A program made the position numbers and the translations under genes. Under the pieces are notes generated by a model. The model saw only the letters and a program-made list of their open reading frames with translations. It was not told the origin of the DNA and made no database searches. From a virus: 46,344 nucleotides of DNA. This document shows positions 22,641 through 38,358 of the stretch, piece after piece. The stretch lies in the IMG/VR virus record IMGVR_UViG_3300025131_000078, positions 1-46,344 of that record. One strand, given 5' to 3'. Positions within the stretch are counted from its first letter, which is position 1. Every line of letters begins with the position of its first letter.

Positions 22641-24440
22641 ATGCCAACTATACCTACAGTATTTAGAAATGTTCGTACAAACGATGTCCACCAACGACCA
22701 TTTAAAGCATATAAAAACTACAGAATATTAAATATAAATTATTCTGCTAGTGCGTTTCAAGTACAAAAAGCTAGCTTTAAATATTATCCGGCTCATGTAG
22801 GAGATGCATCATATAATTATCCAAACAATCCAGATGGAACAAATTGCCATAGTATATGGAAATGGATTGATCATAGATATTATAGACATCCTTATGACTC
22901 GGCTAAGTGTCATGAATTAACTAACGAAAATACTACACAAAAATTTCTTTTCAAAACTGCTTCAATTCTTACCATGCCTTATTTTGATGTCGGCGAACGT
23001 GTCAGGCCTGGCACTTTCTTGTTAACAAGTCAGCCAAGATCTAGTAGTAAAAATTATTATGATGATTATGATATTCGATTAGATGATGACGGGTATGGAA
23101 ATTTAAGAGACCAAAAAATTATATCTTCATCCTTTGCCACTTCTAGTTATTGTCAATGGTATTTAACATTTAATAATGAATTTCGTAGATTTGATGATCA
23201 TTATGGTTTGTTAGGTGACGGTAAAATGCATTATAAATTACGTAAATCTCATAAATATGATGCTGATGTTCATAATGTAAGAATGATCAAAGGAGTGTCA
23301 TTATATTTATCAGAAAGTGCTGCGTACAAAGTATCTGGCATGTCCGGAGCATTTACTGAAAGTTTAAATAGTCATATTAGGGTGCCTCATGATAGTACAT
23401 TTGAACATTTTGAGAGATGTGACCAATGGGGAATTTCATTATGGATCAATCCTAACTCAACTTCAGATACCGGAAGTTTAGTTTCTAAAGGCAAAGTAAC
23501 TAAAGAGTCATATTATGATTTAAACGATAAAAGTCAAAAAATTAGGACTGTAGAAGTATCTCGACCTATTCCTGGACTAGAGATAGAAGAATTTAATAAA
23601 TTTAGGACTCCAATTGAATTATCTTTAATCGGCGGAACAATACATTATCAAGCTAGTGATGGTACAAATCAATTACATATATCAGCAAGTGCAGGATATC
23701 GCGATGGATGGTGTCATGCCTTTTTAATGAATTCTGCTTCTATGTGTAAAATATATGTAAATGGTACTGAGTCAGGTACACAGGGTCCAATCCCATCTGG
23801 CATTACTAGTAATAAAGGAGATTTAATATTAGGTTCGGATTCAATATCATCTTCATTATCTTCTTTTAATGGTGATATTGCAGAAGTCCGTATGTATGAT
23901 TATATAGTATCAGATGAAGCTATTAAATCTTTAGCGAATCAAGATTTTTATTCTGGCTCTTTATATCAAACAAATGTAGTAGGAAATATATTTTATAAAA
24001 ACGGCCAAGCTGTTATTTCTTCACCTATGCCAAAATATGATGAAATATTTTTTACTTCTTCATTGGAAGATAAAAGTATATCACCTATACCAACAGAATT
24101 TACAGCTAGTTATAAAGGACAATATACAATATACGAAAATGAATGTATGGTGAGAGTTCCTAAAGGAACGTTTAATATTTCAATGAACCCATCATCTGTA
24201 TTCCGACCAGGCACTGGTATTAAAAATAATTGTAATACAGCTGGAGGTGGAGCTGAACAGACTAATGGCCCCGGACAATTCATTAAAACAATGTTTATCT
24301 CAGGATCAGCAAATCCATATATTACTACAATTGGTTTATACAATGATAGAGCACAATTATTAGCAATTGGAAAATTAGCAGAACCTGTACAAAAGCGCGA
24401 TGATATTGATATGAATTTCGTTGTTCGTTGGGATTACTAA
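22641..24440 (+). CDS. fibre/baseplate protein with LamG lectin-like domain
   Basis: In this 599-residue protein, residues ~243-432 form a clear LamG/concanavalin A-like domain. Its landmarks are WGISLWINPNSTSDTGSLVSKG, then a strand hairpin, DGWCHAFLMN..SMCKIYVNG, LILGSDS, and FNGDIAEVRMYDYIVSDEAI. These domains bind glycans or proteins. The N-terminal ~240 residues are Tyr- and His-rich and probably anchor it. The C-terminal module (~557-580, TTIGLYNDRAQLLAIGKLAEP) is shared with the previous protein. It is followed by a late-type element and an unrelated nuclease gene, so it ends the baseplate run. Confidence 0.7.
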   Translation: MPTIPTVFRNVRTNDVHQRPFKAYKNYRILNINYSASAFQVQKASFKYYPAHVGDASYNYPNNPDGTNCHSIWKWIDHRYYRHPYDSAKCHELTNENTTQKFLFKTASILTMPYFDVGERVRPGTFLLTSQPRSSSKNYYDDYDIRLDDDGYGNLRDQKIISSSFATSSYCQWYLTFNNEFRRFDDHYGLLGDGKMHYKLRKSHKYDADVHNVRMIKGVSLYLSESAAYKVSGMSGAFTESLNSHIRVPHDSTFEHFERCDQWGISLWINPNSTSDTGSLVSKGKVTKESYYDLNDKSQKIRTVEVSRPIPGLEIEEFNKFRTPIELSLIGGTIHYQASDGTNQLHISASAGYRDGWCHAFLMNSASMCKIYVNGTESGTQGPIPSGITSNKGDLILGSDSISSSLSSFNGDIAEVRMYDYIVSDEAIKSLANQDFYSGSLYQTNVVGNIFYKNGQAVISSPMPKYDEIFFTSSLEDKSISPIPTEFTASYKGQYTIYENECMVRVPKGTFNISMNPSSVFRPGTGIKNNCNTAGGGAEQTNGPGQFIKTMFISGSANPYITTIGLYNDRAQLLAIGKLAEPVQKRDDIDMNFVVRWDY

Positions 24441-24463: not shown

Positions 24464-24892
24464 ATGGCATGGAGGTCAAAATCTAAAATACGTGCGAATG
24501 CAATCAAACATGGATATCGAAGCGGATTTGAACATAAAGTCTCAGAACAATTATCAGAAGCCAAAATTAAATTTAGGTATGAAGATACAGTTATTAATTA
24601 CATTAAGCCAGAAACTCATCATAAATATACGATTGATTTTACTTTACCTAATGGGATATTAATTGAAACAAAAGGCCGGTGGGTAATTGAAGATCGTAAA
24701 AAACATTTATTGATAAAGAAACAACACCCAGAATTAGATATTAGGATTGTGTTTCAGTCAGCCCGGACGAAGATTAGAAAAGGCTCAAAAACTAGTTATG
24801 GCGATTTTTGTGATAAACATGGAATACAGTGGGCAGAAAAGGATATTCCAACAAAATGGCTACAAGAAAAAAAAAGCTTGATAAAAATTTGA
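24464..24892 (+). CDS. T7-type endonuclease I (Holliday junction resolvase)
   Basis: It cuts branched DNA such as four-way junctions before packaging. The 142-residue protein closely follows T7 gp3: SGFEHKVSEQL, then YTIDFTLPNGILIETKG, then a DRKKHLLIKKQHPELDIRIVF segment and KGSKTSYGDFCDKHGI. The catalytic set is intact: E23, D58, E68 and K70, matching E20, D55, E65 and K67 of T7 endonuclease I. The length is near the T7 protein (149 aa). T4 itself uses the unrelated endonuclease VII (gp49), so this is a non-orthologous replacement. It has its own late-type element, fitting a role in resolving concatemers at packaging. Confidence 0.95.
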   Translation: MAWRSKSKIRANAIKHGYRSGFEHKVSEQLSEAKIKFRYEDTVINYIKPETHHKYTIDFTLPNGILIETKGRWVIEDRKKHLLIKKQHPELDIRIVFQSARTKIRKGSKTSYGDFCDKHGIQWAEKDIPTKWLQEKKSLIKI

Positions 24893-25012: not shown

Positions 25013-25939
25013 ATGAGTAAATTTTCTATAATTACGTTACTCGAAAGTGTACTGGGAAAGGGTAAAGTAAATGCAAATGATAACATTGCATTTCACTGCC
25101 CATTTTGTCATCACAATAAGAAAAAATTAGAAGTTAATGTTATAAGTCAATATTGGCACTGCTGGGTATGTAATGCGGCCGGACGTAAATTAACAATACT
25201 ATTCAGAAAATTAAATGTAGAACGTAGTAAAATATCAAAATTAATTGGTTTATTAGAAGACGTTGAACATAGACCAAATTTCACAACAACCCTAACACCA
25301 GTATTAAATCTACCAGAATCATTCCGACCATTATGGAAATTTGATAAAGGAGCTCCAGAGTATAGAAATGCAGTATTTTATTTACAAAACCGCGGACTTA
25401 CTATTTATGATATTTTAAAATATAGGATTGGATATTGCGATTCTGGCCCATACTCCGGAAAAATAGTTATCCCAAGTTTTGATGCTAATGGCAGTTTAAA
25501 CTATTTTGTATCCAGGGCATATTATGAAGATGATGTATGGAAACATAAAAACCCGAAGGTTTCGAAAGATATTGTAGGATTTGAATTACATATAAACTGG
25601 AATATGCCAATTGTATTAGTCGAAGGGGCATTCGATGCAATTGCAATAAAACGAAATGTAATTCCATTATTTGGAAAAACAATTTCAAATACACTTAAAA
25701 AACGTATCGTTGAAAAAGGAGTAAAAGAAATTGTTATTTGTTTAGATAAAGATGCTAAAAAACAAGCAATAGAGGCAGCAGATTATTTTATGTCAAATGG
25801 ATTAAATGTATATCTAGTAGATCTACCAGAATCAGACCCTAGTGAATTAGGGTTTGAAAAAATACAAAAATTAATCGATTCGACTTTAAAATTGACATCT
25901 GAAGAATTAATGCAAGAAAAGATATTATGCGCGTTGTAG
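25013..25939 (+). CDS. DNA primase (DnaG/T4 gp61-type)
   Basis: It makes RNA primers for lagging-strand synthesis with the phage helicase. An N-terminal zinc ribbon uses C29-x2-C32 and C50-x2-C53 (CPFC ... CWVC). The TOPRIM domain has the catalytic glutamate E204 in VLVEGAFDAI and the metal-binding pair D245/D247 in LDKDA. The 308-residue length is slightly below T4 gp61 (342 aa). The gene opens a replication/recombination pair, and its last 13 bases overlap the gp47-gp46 fusion gene. The intergenic region upstream holds two promoter-like elements. Confidence 0.92.
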   Translation: MSKFSIITLLESVLGKGKVNANDNIAFHCPFCHHNKKKLEVNVISQYWHCWVCNAAGRKLTILFRKLNVERSKISKLIGLLEDVEHRPNFTTTLTPVLNLPESFRPLWKFDKGAPEYRNAVFYLQNRGLTIYDILKYRIGYCDSGPYSGKIVIPSFDANGSLNYFVSRAYYEDDVWKHKNPKVSKDIVGFELHINWNMPIVLVEGAFDAIAIKRNVIPLFGKTISNTLKKRIVEKGVKEIVICLDKDAKKQAIEAADYFMSNGLNVYLVDLPESDPSELGFEKIQKLIDSTLKLTSEELMQEKILCAL

Positions 25940-28900
25940 ATATTGGACTAACCCATATTGATAAAATATTTCACATTGCTGATGTACATGTAAGAAATGT
26001 TAATAGACATAAAGAATATGATTATGTATTTAAAAAATTATATTCTTATATTAAAAAGGCAAAAACTAATAATAGTATAATTTACGTTGCTGGAGATGTG
26101 GTCCATGCTAAAACGGATATGTCTCCGGAATTGGTATTAATGGTATCAGATTTCTTTAAATCATTGGCTGATATAGCTCCTACATTATTAATCACCGGAA
26201 ACCATGATTGCAACCTAAATAATTCTAATAGATTGGATGCCTTGTCTCCCATTGTTAAAGCCTTAAATCATCAAAACTTACACTATCTTAAAGACAATGA
26301 TATATATAGTATTTCGAATGTACACTTTAACGTAATGTCGGTGTTTAATAAGCCGGCAGATTATATCAAAGCAGGTGATTTTGAGGGAGATATAAAAGTA
26401 GCATTACACCACGGAGCTGTAAACGCAGCTACTACAGATACTGGATTTTTATTAAGTAATAGTCATGTTACAACCGGATTATTTACCGGACACGATCTAG
26501 TTTTATTAGGCGATATTCATAAAACACAATTTTTAGATGACGCAAAAACAATTGGATATCCTGGCTCCCTTATACAACAAAATCATGGCGAAGCATTAGT
26601 TCATGGAATATTTGAATGGGATTTAAATACAATGGAAGGAAAGTTTGTAAAAATTCCAAACATGTATGGATATTATACATTTGAAATTGAAAACGGAAAA
26701 ATAACAAACCCATCTAATAATATTCCAATTAAACCTAGATTAAGATTAAAAGTTAAAGAAACAACAGCATCAGAATTAAAACGTGTTATATCTGAAATCC
26801 GCAAACAGTATAAAGTTCAAGAAATTGCAATTCAAAAAATTCATTCATTAAACGAATCAAATGGAAAACAAAAAATATCATTTGGAGACGTCCGTGACGT
26901 AGAATGGCAAAATAACATCATCTCAGATTTTTTAGTTGATAAACATGGATTATCTGACAAGATGTTAGATGTAGTAAGACATATTAATCGTACTGTACAT
27001 TCCAAATTACCAGATTCAGAATTAACACGTAATATAGTTTGGGTGCCTAAATTATTTGAGTTCTCAAATATGTTTAGTTATGGAGAAAATAATGTTATTG
27101 ATTTTACAAACATTTTAGGAATAAATGGATTGTTTGCTGCAAATGCAACTGGTAAATCAACATTGTTAGATGCATTAGCGTTTTGTTGTTTTGATAGATG
27201 TAGTAGAACTGTTAAAGCTGCTCATGTACTGAATAATAAAAAATCTACATTCCATTGTAAATTTCATTTTGAATTAGACGGAAAACAATTTTTTATAGAG
27301 AGGAACGGAAAGAAAAATAATAATGGTCATGTTAAAGTAAATGTAGATTTTTGGAAATTGGACGAAAATGGAGATCAAGTATTATTAAATGGAGATCAAA
27401 GAGATACTACAAATAAAGTTATTCGTAAATATATTGGTTCTTATGATGACTTTATTTTAACTGCATTATCATTACAAAATAATAATACTGGGTTCATTGA
27501 TAAATCACAAAGAGAACGTAAAGAATTACTAACTCAGTTTTTAGATATCGATGTTTTTGAGAAACAATATCAAATCGCAGCAGATAATATAAGAGATACA
27601 GCAGCACTAATACGAGAATATAAACGTAATGATTATAGTACAACTTTATCAGAAGCAGAAAAAATAATAGATCGTTTAACAGCTCCTCGCGATCGTATGA
27701 TTAATGAAAAATCGGAACATGAAAAAATGTCTAATGATTTAAATGATATTATTGTTAATTTAACTTCTGAGTTAATAACAATTTCAGACGATGTATTGAC
27801 AATACAAGAGGCTCAAGATAAAGTCGATAAATTAAAAGTATCGCGTGAAGAATATGATAAATTTTTACAAGATAAACAAAATTTAATAGAATCTTATAAA
27901 AATACTTTAATAGAATTACAAGAACAAGAATCTGAATATAATAAAACTGAACTTGAAGCTGAACAATTAGAAATGGACCATCTTCGAAAATTAATACAAG
28001 ATATTCAAAACAATAAAATTCCAGTATTAGACGCGGAAATAAAGGCAGCAGAACGATTAGAGTCAAAACTAGGAGATCATAAATGGAACCCAGATTGTGA
28101 ATATTGTATGGCTAATCCATGGTTACATGAAGCCCAAAAGGCATCTGATGATCTACCTAAACTAAATAAACAGTTACTTAAATTAAAAAAAGAAGAACAA
28201 GATCATCATCATACAATATTATATTCAGAAGCACATAATCGATTAGTTCAATTAAATGAAATAGAAGAGTCAATTACTGATTCAGAACGTCATTTGGAAC
28301 AAGAAATTTTAAGATTAAAATCGTACGATAGTAAAACTCAACTACATAACACATGGATGAAGGCATCTGTATCTAAATTAGAAGAAGCCAAACAACATAA
28401 AAATGATATTGAATTTAATAAAACAAAACGTACAGAAATAGGAGATGTAATATCAGAACGTGATGATATTAATGAACAGATAAAGGAATTAGATGATAAT
28501 ATTCAATCAATAATAAATAAATTAAATTTAGGAGAAGCTTCAAAAAAAGAAGCTTTAGATGCAATACAACGATTATCTGACCTAGAAACACAATACAAAG
28601 GATATGAATATTATTTAAAATCTATAAAAAGAGATGGAGTTCCATATCATCTTATTACAAAAGCATTGCCTCAAATAGAATCTGAGATAAATAATATTTT
28701 GACACAGATTGTAGACTTTACAATGATATTACAAACAGATGGAAAAAATATTAATGGATATATCGTTTATGATGATGATAATTATTGGCCATTAGAATTA
28801 ACATCGGGTATGGAAAAATTTATTTCTTCATTGGCAATACGTACATCATTAATTAATATTACTAGTTTACCAAGACCAAACTTTTTAGCAATAGATGAGG

Positions 28901-29076
28901 GGTTCGGAGTATTAGATTCTGAAAATTTAAATAATATGTATTTGTTATTTGATTATTTAAAATCTCAATTTGGATTTATTTTATGTATATCTCATATTGA
29001 TGCAATGAGAGACATCGTAGACCGTTTAGTGGAAATTAAAAAGGTCAATGGATATTCTAAAATAAACTATTCTTAA
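25927..29076 (+). CDS. fused Mre11-Rad50 (SbcD-SbcC; gp47-gp46) recombination nuclease
   Basis: One 1049-residue chain joins two proteins that are separate in T4. Residues 1-~340 are the Mre11/SbcD phosphoesterase: D19 and H21 in IADVHVRN, D57 in AGDVVHA, GNHD at 91-94, LHHGAVN, and GDIHKTQ with GYPGSLIQQNHGE. Residues ~370-1049 are the Rad50/SbcC ATPase: Walker A NATGKST (K410), Q-loop SLQNNN, a long coiled coil, and a zinc hook at C724-E-Y-C727. The ABC signature-like LTSGMEK (near 958) and Walker B FLAIDEGFG (D990, E991) follow. The complex processes DNA ends and drives recombination-dependent replication. All catalytic motifs are intact and no stop or frameshift separates the halves. The ATG at 25927 overlaps the primase gene by 13 bases. 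Confidence 0.95.
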   Translation: MRVVDIGLTHIDKIFHIADVHVRNVNRHKEYDYVFKKLYSYIKKAKTNNSIIYVAGDVVHAKTDMSPELVLMVSDFFKSLADIAPTLLITGNHDCNLNNSNRLDALSPIVKALNHQNLHYLKDNDIYSISNVHFNVMSVFNKPADYIKAGDFEGDIKVALHHGAVNAATTDTGFLLSNSHVTTGLFTGHDLVLLGDIHKTQFLDDAKTIGYPGSLIQQNHGEALVHGIFEWDLNTMEGKFVKIPNMYGYYTFEIENGKITNPSNNIPIKPRLRLKVKETTASELKRVISEIRKQYKVQEIAIQKIHSLNESNGKQKISFGDVRDVEWQNNIISDFLVDKHGLSDKMLDVVRHINRTVHSKLPDSELTRNIVWVPKLFEFSNMFSYGENNVIDFTNILGINGLFAANATGKSTLLDALAFCCFDRCSRTVKAAHVLNNKKSTFHCKFHFELDGKQFFIERNGKKNNNGHVKVNVDFWKLDENGDQVLLNGDQRDTTNKVIRKYIGSYDDFILTALSLQNNNTGFIDKSQRERKELLTQFLDIDVFEKQYQIAADNIRDTAALIREYKRNDYSTTLSEAEKIIDRLTAPRDRMINEKSEHEKMSNDLNDIIVNLTSELITISDDVLTIQEAQDKVDKLKVSREEYDKFLQDKQNLIESYKNTLIELQEQESEYNKTELEAEQLEMDHLRKLIQDIQNNKIPVLDAEIKAAERLESKLGDHKWNPDCEYCMANPWLHEAQKASDDLPKLNKQLLKLKKEEQDHHHTILYSEAHNRLVQLNEIEESITDSERHLEQEILRLKSYDSKTQLHNTWMKASVSKLEEAKQHKNDIEFNKTKRTEIGDVISERDDINEQIKELDDNIQSIINKLNLGEASKKEALDAIQRLSDLETQYKGYEYYLKSIKRDGVPYHLITKALPQIESEINNILTQIVDFTMILQTDGKNINGYIVYDDDNYWPLELTSGMEKFISSLAIRTSLINITSLPRPNFLAIDEGFGVLDSENLNNMYLLFDYLKSQFGFILCISHIDAMRDIVDRLVEIKKVNGYSKINYS

Positions 29077-35763: not shown

Positions 35764-38358
35764 ATGGATAATTTAGGAAATTGGTTAGCGGAACAGCTCA
35801 TAACAGAGCAACAAATAAAAACGGTTCTAGTAGTATACCCGGGCAGGTTCCAACCTATGGGGCAACATCATGCCGAAGTATATAAAAAATTAGCAAGTAA
35901 GTTTGGAAAATCAAATACATTTGTAGTAACATCTGATAAGGTTTCATTGCCTAAATCTCCTTTAAATTTTAAAGAGAAACAAATGGTAATGAAAAAACAT
36001 GGCATTACAAATGTTGTTCAAGTTAAGAATCCATACCAGGCTCAAGAGTTAACTAAAAATTATGACCCGGAAACAACTGCAATGTTATTTGCAGTAGGTA
36101 AAAAAGATATGCAAGAAGATCCGAGATTTAGGGTAGGATTAAAGAAAAATGGTGAACCATCATATTTCCAACATTACGACAAAAACCAAAATAATTTACA
36201 GCCATTTTCAAAACACGGCTATTTAGTTGTAGCACCTCATGTATCTTTAAACGTTCCAGGATTTGGAGAAATGTCCGGAACAACATTAAGACAAGCATTG
36301 GCAACAGCAGATGCACAAACATTTAAAGATATTATGGGATTTTATGACCCAAAAATTTATAATATGTTACAAACTAAATTTATGAGTTTACGTAATGAAG
36401 ACATCGAAAATTTTTTAGTTAAATTTAATATAATATCTTTATTAAAAGAATCATCATCTAATACCACTAACAGTAATACTGATGTTGATGATGGACCTAG
36501 GTATTTTTATGGAAGTCAAAAAGCATATGAGATTGATTCGAAGAGGATGGCGGAATCATTAGGATTTTCAGTGTTAAATTATATAATGGATGGAGGAATG
36601 TCTGAAATGAATAATACAACATTTCCAGATGGCCCTCCAATGGGAGTATCATATTTTCCTGTCGGCGCTGCCGGAGCAACGATGTCTGGTACAGATTATA
36701 CCGGTAATATAAAAGGAAAGCCAGCATATAAAAAATGGAGTGATTATATTAGTAATGTAGCTACTCAAGTAGGATATAAGTTCTTAAATTTCCTAGGAGC
36801 GGAAGATTCGATTGCAAGTACAAAAGATGCAAACATCTCTAAACCTGAATCATTAGTACAAGAACAGATTCAAAATAAAGAATGGTGGTCATCGTTAATG
36901 GAAGATATAACAATTCCTATTAATATTGGTGATACTGTTTTAATGGGCAAATTTAAAAATAAAAAAGTTGTTGTTAAATCAATTACTAAAAACGAAAAGG
37001 GTGATTATTTAATAAACGGACGCCCGGCAATGAAGTTTAGATTAATACCTCAAGTCGAAGAAACCATTAAAAAGGTGGATGGCAAATATGTTGTATATCC
37101 TAAAAAAGGCGGAAAGCGTTTAGGCACTCATGCAAGTCGTACAAAAGCTGAAAAACAATTACGTGCTATTCATGCTAATGAAAATATAATTAAAGAAGCC
37201 AAGGCCAATACTCATTTAACTCATTTAGAAGAGTTAATATTAACTCAAGGCCAAGATGGCTATAAACAAGCACGTGATGTCTTAATCGAACTTATAAAAA
37301 ATCTTAAAGGCAATTCTAATGCAAAAGTTAATACTACTGTTAAATGGGACGGCGCCCCGGCTCTGTTCGCAGGCATCAACCCAGAAAATGGAAAATTCTT
37401 TGTAGGAACAAAGTCCGTATTTAATAAAGTACCTTTAATTAACTACACAGATGAGGATATCGACCGTAACCATGGTGGAGCTCCTGGCTTAGCAGTTAAG
37501 CTTAAAAAAGCTCTTAAAGTGTTACCATCACTAGGAATACGAAATATTCTGCAAGGCGATTTTATGTTTGACGATTCTACATTAAAACTTAAAACAATAG
37601 ATGGCATTAAACATTATGTATTTAAACCAAATGCAATTACATATGCGGTAGAGGTAGATTCAGATCTAGGACGTCAATTAGAAAAGGCAGAACTTGGCAT
37701 TGTATTTCATACCGGATATAAAAGTTTAGATAGCGGCGCAGAATTTGGAGCTAATGTATCCGGATTAAACCGACCACCAGCAGTTTGGTTTGATGATGCA
37801 TTTTTTAAAGATACAACAGGTACTGTATTATTAACTAATGACGAGGCTAAGCAAGTAGCTGGTTTAATTAAAAAGGCCGATAGTATAAAAGTAGATTATG
37901 ATAAGTTACCGTCTGCATTATTGAATATATACATTAATAAAGAAATTAGAAGTAATGAATTTTTAAATAATCCTAAACAATCATATGATAAGTTTATTAC
38001 TTGGGTACAAAGTAGAATAGATACAAAAGTTGACAAATTGAAATCTGAAAGAGGCAAACAAAAAGCAATTATTGTTGGCCAAGAACAAATGGCAAAAATT
38101 AATGATGCCGAAAAAGATATTTTAAATGTATTTAATTTAAGTAAATTATTAGCAGAAGCAAAATTAGTATTTGTTAGAAAATATAACAATGCTGTTTATA
38201 ATACAAAACATTTTAAAGACGACGGTAAAGGCGGATTAGCTGTTACAGCACCAGAAGGATATGTAGCTATCGATAGATTTGGAAATGGCGTTAAATTAGT
38301 AGATAGATTAGAATTCAGTAGAGCTAATTTTGCAATGGACAAAGGTTTTACAAAATAA
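35764..38358 (+). CDS. fusion: NMN adenylyltransferase-like + ligase-like (DUF6267-like) protein
   Basis: The protein has 864 residues in several modules. Residues 1-17 form a short leader ending LITEQQ. Residues ~20-220 form an HIGH-superfamily nucleotidyltransferase: VVYPGRFQPMGQHH (27-36, with the first His of H-x-G-H missing), a VTSDK strand, and SGTTLRQAL (171-179). A linker region of unknown fold lies at ~240-370. A small beta domain (GDTVLMGKFKNKKVVVKSI, from ~388) and a basic repeat-like helix (KKGGKRLGTHASRTKAEKQL, ~445-465) follow. From ~480 onward it has ligase/nucleotidyltransferase features: KWDGAPALF with candidate lysine K527, then QGDFMFDD at 597. I associate this last part with DUF6267 of T4-like phages. 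The reaction is unknown; AMP or NMN transfer is a reasonable guess. It lies between fibre genes and head-type genes. Confidence 0.75.
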   Translation: MDNLGNWLAEQLITEQQIKTVLVVYPGRFQPMGQHHAEVYKKLASKFGKSNTFVVTSDKVSLPKSPLNFKEKQMVMKKHGITNVVQVKNPYQAQELTKNYDPETTAMLFAVGKKDMQEDPRFRVGLKKNGEPSYFQHYDKNQNNLQPFSKHGYLVVAPHVSLNVPGFGEMSGTTLRQALATADAQTFKDIMGFYDPKIYNMLQTKFMSLRNEDIENFLVKFNIISLLKESSSNTTNSNTDVDDGPRYFYGSQKAYEIDSKRMAESLGFSVLNYIMDGGMSEMNNTTFPDGPPMGVSYFPVGAAGATMSGTDYTGNIKGKPAYKKWSDYISNVATQVGYKFLNFLGAEDSIASTKDANISKPESLVQEQIQNKEWWSSLMEDITIPINIGDTVLMGKFKNKKVVVKSITKNEKGDYLINGRPAMKFRLIPQVEETIKKVDGKYVVYPKKGGKRLGTHASRTKAEKQLRAIHANENIIKEAKANTHLTHLEELILTQGQDGYKQARDVLIELIKNLKGNSNAKVNTTVKWDGAPALFAGINPENGKFFVGTKSVFNKVPLINYTDEDIDRNHGGAPGLAVKLKKALKVLPSLGIRNILQGDFMFDDSTLKLKTIDGIKHYVFKPNAITYAVEVDSDLGRQLEKAELGIVFHTGYKSLDSGAEFGANVSGLNRPPAVWFDDAFFKDTTGTVLLTNDEAKQVAGLIKKADSIKVDYDKLPSALLNIYINKEIRSNEFLNNPKQSYDKFITWVQSRIDTKVDKLKSERGKQKAIIVGQEQMAKINDAEKDILNVFNLSKLLAEAKLVFVRKYNNAVYNTKHFKDDGKGGLAVTAPEGYVAIDRFGNGVKLVDRLEFSRANFAMDKGFTK

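Follow-up and report, generated by a model that had tools for sequence, protein, structure and literature searches.

The window, i.e., the whole stretch of viral DNA analysed here (46,344 nucleotides, IMG/VR record IMGVR_UViG_3300025131_000078), encodes Mre11 and Rad50 in a single chain. The protein is composed of a complete Mre11/SbcD half (residues ~1-359) and a complete Rad50/SbcC half (371-1049) with its zinc hook. With a probability of about 0.88, it is a one-chain Mre11-Rad50 (SbcD-SbcC) nuclease by which the phage processes DNA ends, most likely for recombination-dependent replication of the T4 type. The fusion is real, but of a kind that has been known since 2011 and is common in this phage lineage. 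In that year, Yoshida, Claverie and Ogata described R555 of Mimivirus and twelve other Mre11/Rad50 fusions, from one Bacillus phage, plasmids, bacteria and eukaryotes (PMC3175470). An earlier note on this DNA had hinted that fusions in phages might be undescribed. This was wrong: they have been in the literature since that report, and the fused form is common in the lineage; what the note itself had named as speaking against it, many homologues already described as fusions, is to a large extent on record. Beyond 2011, the present analysis contributes a full-length family, whose neighbourhood is conserved and whose active-site signature is invariant, and shows that the gene is single-copy in four long relatives. 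The short scaffolds of 2011 were only suggestive; here the fused genes are full-length, and the tailed phages of aquatic origin that carry them make up a large lineage.

Table 1. Position of the fused gene, its parts and its upstream neighbours in the window
Feature	Position	Strand	Basis
T7 gp3-type endonuclease I (Holliday-junction resolvase) gene	24464..24892	+	PF05367, E 2.4e-58; neighbour kept in most relatives
DnaG-type primase/Toprim gene, overlapping the fusion gene by 13 bases	25013..25939	+	PHROG 47, TIGR00646, Toprim; adjacent upstream in relatives
Fused Mre11-Rad50 (SbcD-SbcC) gene, 1049 aa	25927..29076	+	Open frame; Pfam, PHROG and NCBIfam matches; at least 582 IMG/VR relatives
Mre11 nuclease and capping domain, residues 1-310 (D19, H21, D57, N92, H162, D196, H198)	25927..26856	+	Metallophos match; motif conservation; structural match 7dog
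Helix-loop-helix (Rad50-binding position), residues 325-359	26899..27003	+	Predicted helices; conserved position and sequence
Inter-domain linker, residues 360-370	27004..27036	+	Lower-confidence unstructured segment from helix-loop-helix to first Rad50 strand
Rad50 N-lobe with Walker A (K410), residues 371-567	27037..27627	+	AAA_23 match; structural matches
Coiled-coil arms with CxxC zinc hook (C724/C727), residues 570-900	27634..28626	+	Predicted long helices; conservation of hook Cys
Rad50 C-lobe with signature TSGME, Walker B D990/E991 and D-loop, residues 905-1049	28639..29073	+	Conservation; structural match

Translation of 25927-29076 on the plus strand runs without a stop through 1049 residues. 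Two Pfam families match above cut-off, Metallophos (calcineurin-like phosphoesterase) at residues 13-198 and the ATPase family AAA_23 at 380-589. PHROG 77 (SbcC-like) covers residues 288-1048, and NCBIfam yields Rad50 and SbcC matches, both far under its cut-offs. Mre11 thus comes first and ends in a helix-loop-helix (325-359), a linker follows (360-370), and Rad50 starts at residue 371. That nuclease and ATPase share one uninterrupted frame had already been claimed in the earlier note; translation, domain matches and independent contigs confirm it.

Many phages have split SbcD and SbcC genes in just this order, and the relative L087 carries a stop precisely where the two halves meet. Such facts could suggest that adjacent gp47 and gp46 genes were merely joined by a missed stop or a frameshift in sequencing or assembly. 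This explanation is, however, exceedingly improbable. Over 13,147 bases, L005, a contig of its own in IMG/VR, deviates from the window at 3 positions (99.977% identity); a single open reading frame crosses the junction in 103 of 108 loci; and residues 321-376, when compared between the window and four relatives, differ mostly in third codon positions, as expected of coding sequence. The five exceptions comprise two contig fragments that end short of the junction (L039 and L108), two distant phages with split genes (L045 and L046) and L087. In the latter, the stop is due to a one-base difference from an intact neighbour (L088) of 99.5% identity. An assembly artefact is refuted by the independent contigs, and the frame at residues ~340-380, the very place where the earlier note had considered a missed stop or frameshift, is supported independently by L005 and by the 103 open loci, and further by the third-position changes. 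The in-frame stop of L087 (L087:554-3700) may itself be a sequencing error or a natural split.

The junctions of 88 sequences were also checked for a conserved internal ribosome site or start, and none was found (3/88). A single product is therefore expected, and an internal translation start that would yield free Rad50 was rejected.

A search of IMG/VR with the family alignment yielded at least 582 stretches encoding relatives, while about 85,000 prokaryote genomes yielded only 3 loci, all of them on metagenome-assembled contigs. The fused form is the rule in the phage lineage of the window, as judged from the loci examined. The window itself had no close nucleotide relative in the phage collection searched. 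With the window protein as query, the plasmid fusions of the 2011 paper did not reappear; there were only partial SbcC matches.

An AlphaFold2 model of the fused protein built from 74 sequences has a mean pLDDT of 83.7; by virtue of its deeper alignment it supersedes an earlier, poor model (pLDDT 67.6). Its overall pTM is low (0.45), which renders the relative placement of its parts unreliable. The parts themselves are the expected ones: nuclease and capping domain, helix-loop-helix (predicted helices 325-340 and 344-359, pLDDT 84-91), an unstructured segment (360-370), the N-lobe, two long arms flanking C724/C727, and the C-lobe. Residues 12-305 of the model match SbcD of S. aureus (7dog) with a Z of 24.7; residues 372-1049 match the head of E. 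coli SbcC (7yzo) with a Z of 30.4 (349 aligned, rmsd 3.4), and, overall, the model matches SbcC and Rad50 heads with Z values of 27-30. In domains, order and motifs the protein resembles gp47 plus gp46 of T4 and SbcD plus SbcC of E. coli. These systems differ in being encoded by two genes, in having GDxxD as motif II and GHxH as motif V, and in their arms, which are shorter in T4 and longer in E. coli: from Walker A to the hook there are 314 residues in the fused protein, 246 in T4 gp46 and 463 in E. coli SbcC.

The catalytic residues are conserved over 36 full-length proteins and over 74 sequences. The ABC-type head carries K410, S960-G961-M962-E963 and D990/E991, and K410, the hook pair C724/C727 and D990/E991 were all found where the earlier note had placed them. 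Residues S960 to E963 are invariant across the 74 sequences, and so are C724 and C727, with long predicted helices on either side. For the nuclease, the same note had claimed all phosphoesterase motifs. D19/H21, D57 and GNHD at 91-94 are indeed present as placed, but two motifs are not canonical. Of the metal-ligand motifs (DxH, GD, GNHD, H, GxH), D19, H21, D57, N92, H162 and H198 are present, while Asp196 replaces one His. Altogether, the protein departs from the canon in three positions: motif II is GDxxH instead of GDxxD, motif V is GDIH instead of GHIH, and the ABC signature reads TSGME. The first two departures are invariant in all 36 full-length relatives and, in consequence, have to be considered as a family signature, not as decay. 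With D196 in place of a metal-site His and the motif II His in place of the second Asp, nuclease activity could differ.

It might even be argued that the fused chain works unlike the two-gene complex, be it that the altered nuclease (GDxxH, GDIH) is specialised for resolving or trimming, be it that the link enforces a distinct head geometry. The invariance of both departures within the family points in this direction, as does R555, for which the same two have been reported, a His for the third Asp of the motif and an Asp for one His of motif V (PMC3175470). Also, most cellular genomes that have a fusion retain the canonical split genes (PMC3175470). Yet the Asp of GDxH is equally found in the split, T5-like D12 proteins, and in the structure model both halves match their canonical counterparts (SbcD; SbcC and Rad50). 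The copy number can be read both ways. In three long relatives (G002, G003 and G005) neither Metallophos nor SbcC matches occur outside the fused gene; the picture is the same in Microcystis phage Mel-JY01, save for two SbcC matches that are weak and partial. A second full gene of the SbcD or SbcC type was thus found in none of these four, which disposes of two separate genes elsewhere in their genomes and leaves the fusion as their only full copy. The 735-kb uncultured phage LR756501.1 (L004), however, shows a separate SbcC-type match elsewhere besides its fused protein, which is divergent and has 1202 aa. On balance, we regard a deviating mechanism as unlikely.

The separate match in LR756501.1 corresponds to a 618-aa open frame at 670999-672753, and the match region has in-frame TAG/TAA codons. 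Two other records, G001 and LR756508, carry further Metallophos open reading frames. In LR756508.1, a 484-kb uncultured phage, the fused gene (L003:3971-8196) is interrupted directly after the GDIHK motif by ~0.9 kb, which hold a 305-aa open reading frame with a TnsA-like endonuclease domain (PF08722). The interruption resembles a mobile intron, or a homing endonuclease that has inserted at the active site; when this copy was compared with Rfam, no intron matched.

Mre11-Rad50 complexes form an M2R2 head, in which ATP cycling governs the access to the nuclease. What is to be expected of a fused chain can be deduced from the biology of SbcCD and T4 gp46/47 (PMC6265447). Two chains would pair via their Mre11 nuclease domains, ATP-bound Rad50 heads and zinc hooks to build the usual M2R2 head. 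The linker, which comprises ~11 residues in the predicted structure, would bridge a short pre-existing gap between the helix-loop-helix of Mre11 and the start of Rad50. In the two-chain complex this gap was estimated to be bridgeable by 9-12 residues (PMC3175470). The predicted linker falls within this range; the covalent link, therefore, need not change the architecture, and the fusion probably leaves the geometry as it normally is and ensures that both parts are co-expressed at a 1:1 stoichiometry. Plausibly, the link could constrain assembly or simplify regulation. As ATP drives the heads open and shut, the nuclease would be able to trim or nick the ends of DNA to produce 3' tails, on which a UvsX-type recombinase could start recombination-dependent replication and repair. 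The reading as an end-processing nuclease is derived from the completeness of both halves, the conserved catalytic residues, the presence of a UvsX-like recombinase in 8 of 8 long relative records, and the primase and endonuclease I neighbours. A UvsX or SSB gene was not identified on the window, which is a fragment. The one-chain phage version could become a handy single-gene system for structural or single-molecule studies of a complex that normally consists of two subunits.

As to the origin of the fusion, a tree of 23 rows separates 16 fused proteins as one group from seven split pairs (SH-aLRT 99). It includes one distant fused protein (L004), excludes R555 and contains several very long branches; the placement of the long ones (T4, E. 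coli, L004, Moorella) is unsure. With such branches and a single distant fused protein, the tree fits one fusion event for the sampled rows, but there may have been others. For fusions overall, several events have been argued (PMC3175470).

In the viral structure library, the protein is matched best by full-length proteins of giant viruses (Tupanvirus A0A6N1NVE8 with 25% identity, Harvfovirus, Yasminevirus); next come other long proteins of phages, e.g., Tenacibaculum phage pT24 and Listeria phage LMTA-57. R555, by its published description (PMC3175470), shares with the window protein the full-length Mre11-then-Rad50 order and both GDxxH and GDxH; it differs in belonging to a giant virus and in having 1351 aa, whereas the window protein is that of a tailed phage and has 1049. 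Its relatives are among the commonest Mimivirus-like sequences of aquatic viral metagenomes and are probably in part derived from phages; their scaffolds carry phage primases and T7 gp3-like endonucleases (PMC3175470), as does the window near its fusion. The fusion of Bacillus phage 0305phi8-36 (A7KV18), reported in 2011, is likewise phage-encoded but, unlike the window protein, lacks one P-loop NTPase segment and the capping/helix-loop-helix region (PMC3175470). One may speculate that one large lineage of aquatic phages relies for end processing solely on the fused Mre11-Rad50, whose altered active site they share, and that these phages are the reservoir of giant-virus R555, or the reverse. 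We consider this proposal as doubtful. If true, the fused form would be an old, separately evolving branch of Mre11-Rad50 with a mechanism of its own.

Immediately upstream of the fusion lie the genes of the primase and of T7 gp3-type endonuclease I, and the order endonuclease I, primase, fusion is kept in those IMG/VR relatives that have enough flank. Mel-JY01 has a full-length fused homologue (WWT39521.1, 43.5% identity over 99% of the query), which is annotated as 'AAA domain containing protein', the nuclease half being absent from the annotation. Like the window, it has a primase gene just upstream; unlike the window, it has a GIY-YIG endonuclease where endonuclease I would be. Its UvsX-like gene sits between SSB and T4 RNase H/T5 exonuclease-like genes. 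The papers searched do not mention this phage.

The window also encodes a ligase, a head protease, baseplate proteins, a terminase and a portal protein. These genes point to a contractile-tailed phage, of which the window is probably a fragment. At 35764-38358 it encodes an 864-aa protein with a cytidylyltransferase-like N-terminus and a DUF6267 C-terminus; in several relatives, DUF6267 is matched again downstream of the fusion gene. A small protein with a C1q-like domain (PF00386; 34830-35318) adjoins a 1906-aa protein and is probably related to tail fibres. Just upstream of the endonuclease I gene, at 22641-24440, lies a gene whose 599-aa product has a lectin domain of the concanavalin A-like type (Laminin_G_3).
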